Shown here in pieces: positions 17,870 to 27,069 of a DNA stretch of 64,000 bases. Made by a program: the position numbers and the translations under genes. Below the pieces are notes generated by a model. It saw only the letters and a list, made by a program, of their open reading frames with translations, was not told the DNA's origin and did no database searches. Source of the DNA: Methanomicrobium sp. W14 (GTDB lineage: Archaea; Halobacteriota; Methanomicrobia; Methanomicrobiales; Methanomicrobiaceae); NCBI RefSeq assembly GCF_017875315.1, contig NZ_JAGGMM010000001.1, positions 682,001-746,000 of the forward strand, given 5' to 3'. Each line of letters opens with the position of its first letter. Positions within the stretch are counted from its first letter, which is position 1.

Positions 17870-18055
17870 AATAACCTGTTTAATTAATAGGGCATTATCT
17901 TTATCAATCTTTGTTACCCGGACTAAAAAATAATCTAGGGGAATATCAAAAAAATCCACAATAAAAAAGAAGGTAATTATAACATTTTTTGAAATTAGAT
18001 TTAATGTAAAAATTATTTTCTGAATTCAGGGTTATGTAAATAAATTACAATAGGC

Positions 18056-18188
18056 CTTCGCAGGGATAGACTGGCATCCCTGCAGAAGACTGAGATAGAT
18101 ATTATATAATGGATAATGGAGATTCTTGAGAAGATTACAAACAGAAGCTATCTATAATAATCTCTTAAAAACACATGAGATTATTTTT
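18056..18188 (+). ncRNA. Candidate structured RNA between hairpins
   Basis: A 263-bp spacer (17960-18222) has no gene. It has a strong hairpin at 18056-18088 (arms CTTC-GCAGGGAT / ATCCCTGC-A-GAAG, one bulge, 8-nt loop) and a second at 18157-18184 (ATAATCTC / GAGATTAT) followed on the plus strand by TTTTTAG. TATGTAAATAAATT lies about 25 nt before the first hairpin and could be a TATA box. A plus-strand RNA of about 130 nt is one reading; separate terminators are another. Confidence 0.3.
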
Positions 18189-18222
18189 AGAGAACACTAA
18201 ATAAGAATTATCCAGAATAAAT

Positions 18223-18561
18223 TTATTTATTTAAGGATGTATCATTTTCTTGTAATCTTTTTAAATTGTTTATTTTTAGATTATTCAATATCTGTTCTGC
18301 CAAAATTTTGGCATTTTCACTATTCATCATGATTCTATTTACAGAAACTATTCTTTCTCCGTTTACTACTATACCGGGCAATGTTAAAAAGTCAATAAAA
18401 AAATCATTGCCTGTATTCAAAGTTGAACTCCCGTTACTATAAATAATATTTTCGTATTTTGGAGTGAAATCCTCTGAATCTGTAAGGTATAATTTTTCAG
18501 TAGATATTTTGAATAGACCTGTTCTTAGTTCCTTTAGATTTTTCTCATTTTCCTTTGCCAT
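18223..18561 (-). CDS. DUF3467-like accessory protein
   Basis: 112 aa. The pattern YENIIYSNG, DFFIDFLTLPG and the closing SVNRIMMNSENAKILAEQIL recalls DUF3467 proteins, which have an N-terminal strand pair, an F-x-L-D-F element and a helix after R-I-x-M-S-P-x-x-A. Function of that family is unknown. SD GGGTGATTAT precedes ATG 18561. It lies 16 nt after the winged-helix gene and is surely co-transcribed with it. Lys/Asn/Ile-rich composition sets it apart from the flanking housekeeping genes. Confidence 0.6.
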   Translation of the reverse strand: MAKENEKNLKELRTGLFKISTEKLYLTDSEDFTPKYENIIYSNGSSTLNTGNDFFIDFLTLPGIVVNGERIVSVNRIMMNSENAKILAEQILNNLKINNLKRLQENDTSLNK

Positions 18562-18577
18562 ATATAATCACCCGTTC

Positions 18578-19042
18578 TTAAGGACTGCATCCTGCAATAT
18601 TCGGATCATATTGCATAGTTTTATCCAGTTCCTGTTTAGTGAATCTATACTCACTACCCAGTACAGGATTAAATTGAATCGAAATCTCCTTTTTAGTCCT
18701 CTCAATGTTTGGTTTTACTAATAGTTCCTCCAATATTCCTCGAATTAATTTTTTTCCAATATTTGTTGATTGATAATATGACTTTTCTGAAATGCCAATG
18801 TCATCCATATTTTTTGATATTCTTCTAACTAATCCTGCTCTTGAAAGTTCCTTGAGATAACGATCTATTTCACCCGATGATGAAGTACCAAAGCATTTTT
18901 TAATCTCATTAAATTTCAACTCCTCATTTTTCAGAATTGCAATGTATATTGCAAATGCTTTATCCTTCGCTAATGGCTTTAATGAATTTCTAATCTCTAA
19001 CGGAATCTCCGATAGGTACTCCTCAATTGCCTCATCTTTCAT
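18578..19042 (-). CDS. Winged-helix transcriptional regulator
   Basis: 154 aa. The middle (LKNEELKFNEIKKCFGTSSSGEIDRYLKELSRAGLVRRI) is an ArsR/MarR-like winged helix; the C-terminal third is charged and may dimerise. ATG 19042 follows an excellent SD (AGAGGTGATTATT). It is first in a two-gene unit with the DUF3467-like gene and divergent from the TIR-like gene. The 133-bp promoter between them carries two perfect palindromes that this protein may bind. AT-rich codon use, island-like. Confidence 0.75.
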   Translation of the reverse strand: MKDEAIEEYLSEIPLEIRNSLKPLAKDKAFAIYIAILKNEELKFNEIKKCFGTSSSGEIDRYLKELSRAGLVRRISKNMDDIGISEKSYYQSTNIGKKLIRGILEELLVKPNIERTKKEISIQFNPVLGSEYRFTKQELDKTMQYDPNIAGCSP

Positions 19043-19093
19043 AATAATCACCTCTTTACTATGAAATGTTCTTCCCACAGAAATCTATAGATT

Positions 19094-19130
19094 GAAGTCT
19101 CAAAATTGAGACTTCTTACATATATGTAAG
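19094..19130. promoter_or_regulatory. Double palindrome in the divergent promoter (predicted operators)
   Basis: Palindrome 1: arms GAAGTCTCAA (19094-19103) and TTGAGACTTC (19106-19115), 2-bp centre, no mismatch. Palindrome 2: CTTACATATATGTAAG (19115-19130), perfect, with a TATATA core that may be a TATA box. They share one base. A third weak symmetric element, GATAA-N5-TTATC, is at 19140-19154. Placement between a winged-helix regulator and its divergent neighbour suggests operator sites for autoregulation. Confidence 0.65.
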
Positions 19131-19175
19131 TTAACAAGAGATAAAAATATTATCACATGGTATTAATGGTATATC

Positions 19176-19712
19176 ATGCCAGATAGAAAAGAGGATTTCT
19201 TTTCTCCATATAAATCTGATAAAATTTTCTTAGCAAGGGATAAATCAAAAGTAAAAATAGGTATATTTGGCTCATTTGATGACGATAAAAAATATGTTCT
19301 AGTATCAGTTAGAGATTTCCTAAAAAAAGAAGGATATAAAAATACAAAAATGTCATTGGATTGTCCACAACCCAAATCAAAAATAACAGACGAAGAAAAT
19401 CTAGAGATTAGCGAAAAATTAATAGAGTATTCTAACATTCACATAATATTCTTTTTTCATGATGATAAAAATCCCCAATGCAATGAATCCGCAAAAATAG
19501 AATTATCAAAGATCGATGAGAGGCATAAAAAAAACGTTTTAATTTTCGCAGAGAATGGAACAACAAACGGTTCATTATGCAGAGGGATAATTGCACGGGG
19601 AAAACAAAATTCATGGGACAATGAAGACTTCAAAAAAGGAGATCTTGATTTTGTATTTGATACTGCAATTTCTTATTGTTATAATTGCCTATTAGAAGAT
19701 TGCAGTGGATAA
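19176..19712 (+). CDS. Uncharacterised TIR/deoxyribosyltransferase-like protein
   Basis: 178 aa, not assigned to a family with certainty. It starts with a Rossmann-like strand and loop (VKIGIFGSFDDDKKYVLVSV), then DFLKKEGY, a helix with SEKLIEYSN, the strand IHIIFFFHD, a second acidic helix, and the strand KNVLIFAENG. This layout is that of nucleoside 2-deoxyribosyltransferase-like and TIR-like nucleotide-processing domains. The C-terminal end has three Cys (YCYNCLLEDC). AT-rich, divergent from a regulator. No clear SD. Confidence 0.6.
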   Translation: MPDRKEDFFSPYKSDKIFLARDKSKVKIGIFGSFDDDKKYVLVSVRDFLKKEGYKNTKMSLDCPQPKSKITDEENLEISEKLIEYSNIHIIFFFHDDKNPQCNESAKIELSKIDERHKKNVLIFAENGTTNGSLCRGIIARGKQNSWDNEDFKKGDLDFVFDTAISYCYNCLLEDCSG

Positions 19713-19829
19713 AAATTTAAAATTTGTATTTACTATTTAGTTAAAAGACCGAATTATGATTTATTTAAATCACGACTTTCGCCTTATTATAACGATTTTT
19801 ACCGACTTTGAGCCTTATTTTTTTCAATC

Positions 19830-20139
19830 AGATTTTTCTGAACAAGCGTTAACGCCTAGGCTACAGAATCAGGGTCCGTTGCCATCTTTTTGTTCATAAT
19901 GTAGATTTTGGCACCATATTTATCGAAGACGATATCACACCAGATCAGGGCGGCAGACTATGAAATCCTTGTCACGGACCATGCAATGCCGAAATAATCA
20001 CACGGTCACGCGCAGGAACAGCCTTTTTGATAAGGTCCTTAACCTCACCGTAGGATTTCATCAGGTCCAGTTGTGTCCCTGTTGACGTCAGGCACTCTAG
20101 TATCCCTTCAGGATCTATATTCCCGGAAATCCGGGTCAT
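19830..20139 (-). pseudogene. Decayed gene fragment
   Basis: Minus-strand coding remnant in at least two frames. ATG 20139 opens a 53-codon frame (MTRISGNIDPEGILEC, later ARDRVIISALHGP) ending at a TGA; a shifted frame then gives DKDFIVCRPDLV and, after another shift, WCDIVFDKYGAKIYIMNKK. GC is higher than in the flanking island. I do not recognise the family. The rest of 19713-20372 holds nothing else except a T run near 20323-20330 that may end the tRNA-Phe transcript. Confidence 0.5.
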
Positions 20140-20372
20140 GGAAGGTCTTTCCTGTCAGGATATAATCATGCTACATATTCTCTGCATACAGTTTACCAAT
20201 GTTAAATGATTTTTTGCGGACTGCATTATCCCTATTTATAGATTTCAAAGGTATTCTGAAATCAGAACAAAAAATATTTAGAAGAAATCCTTTAACGGTT
20301 ATTCTTCTAACAAACAGACATAAAAAAATTGCGAAGTTAAAACCGATAAGGCTTTAGACCTCAGAATCCTGA

Positions 20373-20446
20373 TGCCTCAACCCGGATTTGAACCGGGGAC
20401 AACCAGATCTTCAGTCTGGCGCTCTCCCAGGCTGAGCTATTGAGGC
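20373..20446 (-). tRNA. tRNA-Phe (GAA)
   Basis: Full cloverleaf on the minus strand: acceptor GCCTCAA/TTGAGGC with discriminator A, D arm GCTC/GAGC, anticodon stem CCAGA/TCTGG with loop CTGAAGA (anticodon GAA), and T arm CCGGTTCAAATCCGG. No intron and no encoded CCA. Its 3' end faces the AT-rich island at 18-20.3 kb. Confidence 0.96.
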
Positions 20447-20447
20447 A

Positions 20448-26202: not shown

Positions 26203-27069
26203 GGCTTCTGTAGAAATCCTCTTGTAAAATAGCGACCGAAAGATCGATCGTACAGGAGTTCCAATATTATTTATCCAAAAAATAAAAGAGGAACTCCCAA
26301 ACAAATGTCGCAGAACAGGTACATCAATCTTGTGAAAATTTCTCAGGAGATTATAAAAAAGTCAAGAGTACCTCTTCGTTCATCAATTTATTCCAAAAAG
26401 AAATTTAACCAGCATCAGCTTCTTTCACTGATAATTTTAAAGGAAGAAATTGGAGTTGATTATCGCGATTTCTGTGACATTTTAGAGATTTTAACTCCAA
26501 TACAAGATCTATTGGATTTAAAAGAAATCCCACATTTTAAAACTCTTCATAAGTTTTTCACCCGTTTTTCCGGACTTTTATTCAACAGAATTCTTGCGAA
26601 AACAATCAGAAAATTGTTGCAGAAGGGACACAAAATCCCGGTTACGTCAATTGATGCAACCGGGTTTACCAGCGCTTATGCAAGCCATTATTATTCAAAT
26701 AGGATCGAAAAAAAGCGCAGAAGTTTTGTGGAAACGTCAATAGCGGTTGATTCTAAGAGTTTGCTGGTCTCCAGATGGAAGTTTTCAAAATCTCCAGTAA
26801 ATGACAGAAAACATGCAAAATAATTGATTCTTCAGACTCAAAAAGCAACAAAGAGCCGTTGTTTTGCAATGGATAAAGGCTATGACGCAGATTCACAAAT
26901 TCCTGTGAGAAAATGGGACTGAAAGATCCGCTCAGGAAAATTCCGGTTTGAAATTATGGCGACACACTACGTTTGAGAAAATATTACAACCAACTCAAAG
27001 AAATTAAGACAAGAATTATCATTCACAATATGCTTCTTGAAAAAAGCGATTAAGGGTTTCTACAGGGCC
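26203..27069 (+). mobile_element. Defective insertion sequence, copy 1
   Basis: Left terminal repeat GGCTTCTGTAGAAATCC and right end whose reverse complement is GGCCCTGTAGAAACCC, giving imperfect inverted repeats of about 16 bp. It encodes a broken IS4/IS5-superfamily DDE transposase. Compared with copy 2, an internal stretch of about 80 bp is missing. No clear target duplication flanks it (one side meets an older IS end), so the insertion is old or rearranged. Confidence 0.8.
26305..27054 (+). pseudogene. Transposase pseudogene (DDE, IS5-like)
   Basis: The first 172 codons are open (MSQNRYINLVKISQEIIKK to NDRKHAK) and include the first Asp in [22 protein letters not shown] at 26821-26823 then interrupts; the second Asp follows in the same frame (FAMDKGYDADS), but the frame ends at RKWD-stop. 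The region that carries the catalytic Glu in copy 2 (NLVECVFSMIKRK) is deleted; YGDTLRLRKYYNQLKEIKTR and the end LLEKSD remain. It cannot make an active enzyme. Confidence 0.82.

Follow-up and report, generated by a model that had tools for sequence, protein, structure and literature searches.

Background

Three small genes of the archaeon Methanomicrobium sp. W14, located at positions 18223-19712 of the 64,000-nucleotide stretch of DNA analysed here (the window), raise the question of what a protein of no recognised family does next to a divergently encoded transcription regulator and a small DUF3467-like protein. A first-pass annotation, made from the sequence alone, had described the block as an AT-rich, palindrome-controlled island beside a tRNA gene end, and had guessed a TIR/deoxyribosyltransferase-like fold for the 178-aa protein, further called the effector. 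A description or test of a module consisting of a TIR-like protein and a winged-helix regulator was not found, and among the 5.4 million open-licence papers searched, DUF3467 is mentioned in one and the haloarchaeal family DUF7509, to which we return below, in none.

Gene layout and candidate operator

All three open reading frames proposed earlier are present, and the regulator and DUF3467-like pair is indeed divergent from the 178-aa gene (Table 1). For the regulator, a start at GTG 19078 is less likely than ATG 19042, which is preceded by the Shine-Dalgarno sequence GAGGTGATT.

Table 1. Features of the module and its surroundings, in window coordinates
Feature	Position	Strand	Remark
DUF3467-like small protein gene, 112 aa	18223-18561	minus	Third gene, not present in all modules; 3' of the regulator gene
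Winged-helix transcriptional regulator gene, 154 aa	18578-19042	minus	ATG at 19042
Regulator Shine-Dalgarno sequence, GAGGTGATT (minus-strand reading)	19046-19054	minus	Read from the sequence
Third small palindrome, AATCTATAGATT	19082-19093		Abuts the main candidate operator
Main candidate operator palindrome, GAAGTCTCAAAATTGAGACTTC	19094-19115		10-bp arms, 2-nt centre
18-nt core of the main candidate operator, AGTCTCAAAATTGAGACT	19096-19113
Second palindrome, CTTACATATATGTAAG	19115-19130		8-bp arms; TATA-box-like core
TATA-box-like element of the effector, ATAAAAATAT	19141-19150	plus	26-35 nt before the effector ATG; read from the sequence
Effector-like gene, 178 aa, predicted TIR/deoxyribosyltransferase-like fold	19176-19712	plus	ORF, AlphaFold2 and Foldseek
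Effector codon S105	19488-19490		Helix C, invariant
Effector codon E109	19500-19502		Helix C, invariant
Decayed or non-coding stretch between module and tRNA-Phe	19740-20370		Six-frame translation gives broken fragments only
tRNA-Phe (GAA)	20371-20447	minus	Its 3' end delimits the lineage-variable segment on the right

The two abutting perfect palindromes described before (10-bp and 8-bp arms) are real and have one base in common; a third one of 12 nt comes on top of these, so that three abutting palindromes span 19082 to 19130. When the mononucleotides of the 133-bp gap were shuffled 5000 times, which preserves base composition only, an arm of at least 10 bp arose in 22 shuffles, accompanied by a second arm of at least 8 bp in 2. 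The 18-nt pattern AGT-N12-ACT is present in 31 of 41 divergent promoters, related promoters included, compared to 1.23 expected from shuffles, and 10 of the 41 hold a perfect 7/7 outer-arm palindrome at 18 nt (0.35 expected); palindromes of even length are enriched in these promoters and those of odd length are not. The copies at other loci include AGTTACTAATTAGTAACT, AGTTAGGAAATCCTAACT and AGTCATAGATCTATGACT, next to AGTCTCAAAATTGAGACT in the window. This conservation supports the earlier idea of a palindromic operator, and the pattern of the candidate site, with conserved ends and covarying inner bases, is the one expected for a dimeric winged-helix protein. Judged by its position, the TATA-like core of the second palindrome would belong to the regulator gene, and the distance between TATA-like element and ATG points to a near-leaderless effector mRNA. 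Given the positions of both elements, a protein sitting on the palindromes would overlie the promoter of the regulator and adjoin that of the effector.

Occurrence and co-evolution of the three genes

In the Methanomicrobiales, the effector was detected in 48 of 232 genomes by protein search and in 51 of 232 (about a fifth) by profile search, and the regulator profile matched 48 of 231 genomes. Effector and regulator occur together in 44 genomes, the effector alone in 7 and the regulator alone in 4 (Fisher p ~4e-35, with related genomes counted individually). Twenty random 13-kb segments gave no regulator match. Of about 47 loci, only L032 has the two genes on the same strand; in the others they are head-to-head. 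The distance matrices of effector and regulator correlate with a Mantel r of 0.93, a value reached in 0 of 2000 permutations. Named carriers include Methanoculleus, Methanoregula, Methanocalculus, Methanofollis and Methanocorpusculaceae, and some genomes hold several copies. Outside the order, full-length effectors are present in two genomes (G281 and G481) from another family of the phylum, and two more genomes contain one an effector remnant and the other a diverged copy.

The regulator scores just below the Pfam cut-offs of TrmB (E=1.9e-5, 24.8 bits versus 25.6) and HxlR (E=0.0012, 19 bits versus 20.8), and in PADLOC only a weak Csa3 match was obtained. For the 112-aa protein, the earlier DUF3467 assignment is supported by a sub-threshold match to PF11950 (E=1.4e-4, 22.3 bits versus a cut-off of 25) and by a score of 31.7, above this cut-off, for the equivalent gene in locus L128; none of the PADLOC models matched it. 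The DUF3467-like partners form two sequence classes, both with PF11950 matches, and one class-b member exceeds the cut-off. Such a gene, encoding about 80-120 aa and usually overlapping the regulator gene or within about 16 nt of it, lies directly 3' of the regulator on the same strand in 26 of the 45 loci with sequence available, and in convergent orientation in two further loci. The three genes hence do occur together elsewhere, as the first-pass annotation had needed them to: the three-gene unit is real, with an optional third gene. Gene order, co-occurrence and operator conservation all support a conserved module, which looks, at sequence level, like a small, mobile-looking gene set in which the effector is paired with a dedicated divergent regulator.

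Sequence relationships of the effector

The statement that the 178-aa protein is of no known family holds, since Pfam, NCBIfam, PADLOC, PHROGs and PDB contain no significant match to it; the number of PADLOC defence models matching it is zero. Neither the window protein nor any of 30 family members matches the Pfam models of DUF4062 (PF13271, at E up to 10) or DUF7509 (PF24349), none of the 30 matches TIR_2 (PF13676) and a single one matches PF05014, at E=0.11 only. Effector relatives were absent from the viral contigs, the plasmid collection and the phage collection. A scan of genome contigs with a single effector sequence gave no match, but an alignment of the closer subgroup did.

Profile-profile comparison, with E-values that are single-pair values for which unrelated controls give 0.2-0.6, yielded DUF7509 at E=8e-6, DUF4062 at E=2.5e-4, TIR_2 at E=0.03 and the nucleoside 2-deoxyribosyltransferases (NDT) at E=0.44, the last being not significant, so that a direct profile match to the archaeal NDT was rejected. 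The hhalign alignment with DUF4062 runs in register over 128 columns and pairs the Glu region of that family with E109 of the effector. On these profiles DUF4062 is the closest characterised family found. Its members have been reported as TIR-like NADases acting in phage defence (Swarozyc; 2026 preprint, PMC13174449). The effector resembles them in TIR-like topology and in its helix-C Glu, and differs from them in having no auxiliary sensing domain and no PF13271 match and in its separate divergent putative repressor. The window's own genome encodes a DUF4062 protein as well (G000:C2:346240-346494, in a 212-aa frame).

Two other groups of proteins came up in these searches. P-loop-type proteins of one archaeal family (L132-L136), with weak matches to the profile, were rejected, as their nucleotide-binding loop (GTHSTGKT or GAHSTGKT) mimics the GSF of the effector. 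A 375-aa archaeal protein (L131:5723-6847, genome G408), the C-terminal part of which (EKSVIVLGKYSDSELNELLQVRDYLRAKGYDAYLIRDLPEH...) weakly matches the effector profile, is possibly a fused distant relative.

Predicted fold and invariant residues

AlphaFold2 modelled the window protein with moderate confidence (pLDDT 72) and a Methanoregula homolog (L110) with pLDDT 88 and pTM 0.85. Both models display a five-stranded beta-alpha sandwich of the order bA-aA-bB-aB-bC-aC-bD-aD-bE-aE. In Foldseek, the top PDB matches included TIR-STING (best E-value), deoxyribosyltransferases, a CMP N-glycosidase and DNPH1, intermixed with flavodoxin-like proteins that have only the general fold in common with the effector; the top viral matches were deoxyribosyltransferases. 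Query TM-scores, mostly between 0.4 and 0.6, are modest, so that the fold class can be assigned with reasonable clarity but not the subfamily. The predicted topology and these structural neighbours favour the fold guessed in the first-pass annotation.

Invariant across the 30 members are the GxF of IGIFGSF, a Ser, a Glu and one Gly, the Ser and Glu being S109 and E113 in the first sequence of the alignment and S105 and E109 in the window protein. E109 lies within helix 100-116 of the window model and E113 within helix 106-122 of the L110 model, and the Ser-x3-Glu is kept even in the diverged copy in L129. By position, the helix-C E109 is predicted to occupy the catalytic-Glu site of the TIR/NDT-like fold. 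With TIR domains (TIR_2, Thoeris ThsB, TIR-STING) the effector has the strand-helix order and the Glu position in common, whereas the sequence relation reaches E 0.03 only and the effector stands alone, without a fused signalling domain. The PF05014 superfamily (nucleoside 2-deoxyribosyltransferase, DNPH1, MilB, BcmB) gives repeated structural matches with TM-scores to the target of 0.5-0.73, MilB, BcmB and DNPH1 being among the best covered, but no significant sequence or profile match; in its known enzymes a Ser precedes the Glu by 6 residues, compared to 4 in the effector family.

Haloarchaeal DUF7509 genes have a similar arrangement

DUF7509, a haloarchaeal family of unknown function, is the nearest family by profile, and in 7 of 7 haloarchaeal loci examined its gene is likewise head-to-head with a winged-helix gene. 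These winged-helix partners match the regulator profile at 3e-6 to 3e-10 and are the one match to it in each 11-12-kb locus. The likeness between the regulators of Haloarchaea and Methanomicrobiales could partly be a general similarity of such domains; the adjacency in all seven loci is independent of that question. DUF7509 differs from the effector family in its N-terminal YLMGPY versus IGIFGSF and its GVGxE versus SxxxE, has no Pfam-level match to it, and was not accompanied by a DUF3467 partner at its loci. At two loci (L234 and L235), what looks like a nucleoside phosphorylase gene comes next after the winged-helix member of the pair.

Composition, genomic site and decay

With 29.9% GC, compared to 40.1% for the window as a whole, the block ranks 5th of 626 stretches of its size, so the earlier remark on AT-richness is borne out. 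As the window has further AT-rich blocks, for example at 26-28 kb, where a transposase-like ORF was recognised by eye at 26305-26823, this composition by itself is unremarkable. Across loci, the module is AT-richer than its flanks in 29 of 33.

The proposed tRNA adjacency stands in part: the 3' end of tRNA-Phe at 20371 is real, but it is 659 bp past the effector, with decayed sequence in between. This stretch, 19740-20370, holds broken coding remnants without Pfam match, such as MTRISGNIDPEGILECLTSTGTQLDLMKSYGEVKDLIKK on the minus strand. Positions 17915-20371 constitute a lineage-variable segment whose right limit coincides with the tRNA-Phe 3' end; nucleotide homology between the window and a genome of the same genus (G116) ends at 17914 and restarts at 20372. 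Since relatives carry other cargo there and have their modules elsewhere (G116 and G119 both have effector modules at other sites), the module sits in a lineage-variable, tRNA-linked spot. Within this family the interval between tRNA-Phe and a ribD-like gene is a site of variable cargo: G116, G119 and G120 (L222, L223 and L224) all have there a gene for a 613-614-aa protein that looks by eye like a PAS-type sensor kinase, accompanied in G119 and G120 by a radical-SAM-like gene. Derivation of the decayed stretch from this kinase-like gene was rejected, as the sequences do not match. No duplicated tRNA-Phe end that could be an attachment-site copy is present within the window, and no integrase was seen adjoining the module. 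Across relatives the module has no fixed genomic location, and some other copies are also near tRNAs.

In 6 of 47 pairs the effector gene is disrupted, against an intact regulator in 47 of 47 (p=0.026, with frameshifts in draft genomes that may include assembly errors); the reverse was never seen. Such one-sided decay is as expected of a costly product. Type I restriction genes lie beside 3 of 24 loci versus 0 of 20 random segments, a small control; with 3 loci only, and with scattered other PADLOC matches in the random segments too, enrichment in defence islands is weak. The Methanomicrobiales loci have no conserved metabolic neighbour. A large, possibly primase-like protein (1135 aa in L041) is encoded near the module in L041, L054, L057 and L059 and may mark integrated elements.

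Proposed function and alternative explanations

The reading that we prefer, although we put it somewhat short of an even chance, is that of a compact, mobile-looking inducible effector module, in which a repressed NAD or nucleotide glycohydrolase would serve an antiviral or stress role. We infer its catalysis, repression, trigger and antiviral role as follows. The 178-aa protein would hydrolyse NAD or a (deoxy)nucleotide by means of the helix-C E109, together with S105, while a winged-helix dimer on the 18-bp AGT-N12-ACT palindrome would repress both promoters. For the DUF3467 protein, whose gene immediately follows that of the regulator in more than half of the loci, sensing of the trigger or modulation of regulator or effector is the probable role. 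Infection or stress would lift repression, and the accumulating enzyme would deplete a nucleotide pool, causing dormancy or death and thereby limiting virus spread. We favour hydrolysis of NAD or nucleotides because of traits that fit host-parasite conflict and because the closest characterised family, DUF4062, is reported to comprise phage-defence NADases; patchiness, AT-richness, the lack of a fixed site, multi-copy genomes and asymmetric decay all fit a costly effector of such conflict. A similar logic is known from CapW/BrxR-type defence loci, where a DNA-binding regulator adjoins a possible immune effector and controls its promoter, although those regulators are WYL proteins and the one described here is a divergent winged-helix protein of the TrmB/HxlR type. 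Against an effector stand the weak enrichment in defence islands, the moderate pLDDT of the window model, the lack of a profile match to canonical NDT and the absence of a sensor or auxiliary domain fused to the 178-aa protein, many TIR-type defence effectors carrying such a domain. The more specific proposal of an undescribed archaeal immune module, composed of a stand-alone TIR/NDT-like hydrolase, a winged-helix repressor acting on AGT-N12-ACT and a DUF3467 sensor or antitoxin, is a tentative one that we hold to be more doubtful than not. Equally tentatively, it might extend beyond the Methanomicrobiales to one or more other families of the phylum, with a diverged form in Haloarchaea.

A divergent regulator-enzyme pair is also the classic arrangement for substrate-induced catabolic genes, and the layout would suit nucleotide salvage or sanitation, with a DNPH1/MilB-like N-glycosidase or deoxyribosyltransferase that clears abnormal nucleotides and is induced via the winged-helix protein when its substrate builds up. 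The coverage of MilB, BcmB and DNPH1 in the structural matches agrees with this, and we keep a metabolic role open because of the phosphorylase-like gene adjoining two DUF7509 pairs, which likewise speaks against the effector reading. The explanation is nevertheless unlikely, considering the presence of the module in only about a fifth of the genomes, its AT-richness, changing sites and effector decay, the want of a metabolic neighbour and the canonical PF05014 gene already present in 27 of 28 genomes of the window organism's family. Small genes, a regulator and DUF3467 gene that mostly overlap or are tightly spaced, a palindromic operator, several copies in some genomes and six broken effectors beside intact regulators would also be compatible with toxin-antitoxin-like maintenance, in which the winged-helix and/or DUF3467 protein directly neutralises as well as represses a TIR/NDT-like toxin. 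The toxin and its presumed antitoxin are, however, transcribed separately, in divergent directions, about 40% of loci have no DUF3467 gene, and the searched plasmid and phage collections contain no copies, which makes this distinctly unlikely.

The strict pairing and co-divergence of the effector with a transcription factor could alternatively reflect a ligand sensor, the TIR/NDT-like pocket binding a nucleotide signal and acting on the winged-helix or DUF3467 protein to control genes elsewhere; the four genomes with a regulator and no effector would allow for other targets. The invariant Ser-x3-Glu, which falls in the region where TIR-like NADases have their catalytic Glu, suggests chemistry instead, and we regard a sensor as quite improbable. 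Very improbable in our opinion is that the genes are integrative-element cargo without fixed host function, kept by their location at a tRNA-linked hotspot: the variable segment does end exactly at the tRNA-Phe 3' end and some copies elsewhere are near tRNAs, but neither a duplicated tRNA end nor an adjoining integrase accompanies the module in the window, and the conservation of its architecture over several archaeal groups points to selection on the module itself.

Conclusions

The 178-aa protein most likely represents a new family with a predicted TIR/nucleoside-deoxyribosyltransferase-like fold. A single testable hypothesis on function covers three uncharacterised families, namely this one, DUF7509 and DUF3467, and it can be tested quickly since Haloarchaea have DUF7509-regulator pairs and the tractable Haloferax volcanii, our control genome, contains a DUF7509 gene. 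If the immune-module reading is true, it would provide the first function for DUF3467 and DUF7509 and an example of transcription-triggered TIR-like defence, and such transcriptionally regulated TIR-like immunity would broaden the known archaeal defence.
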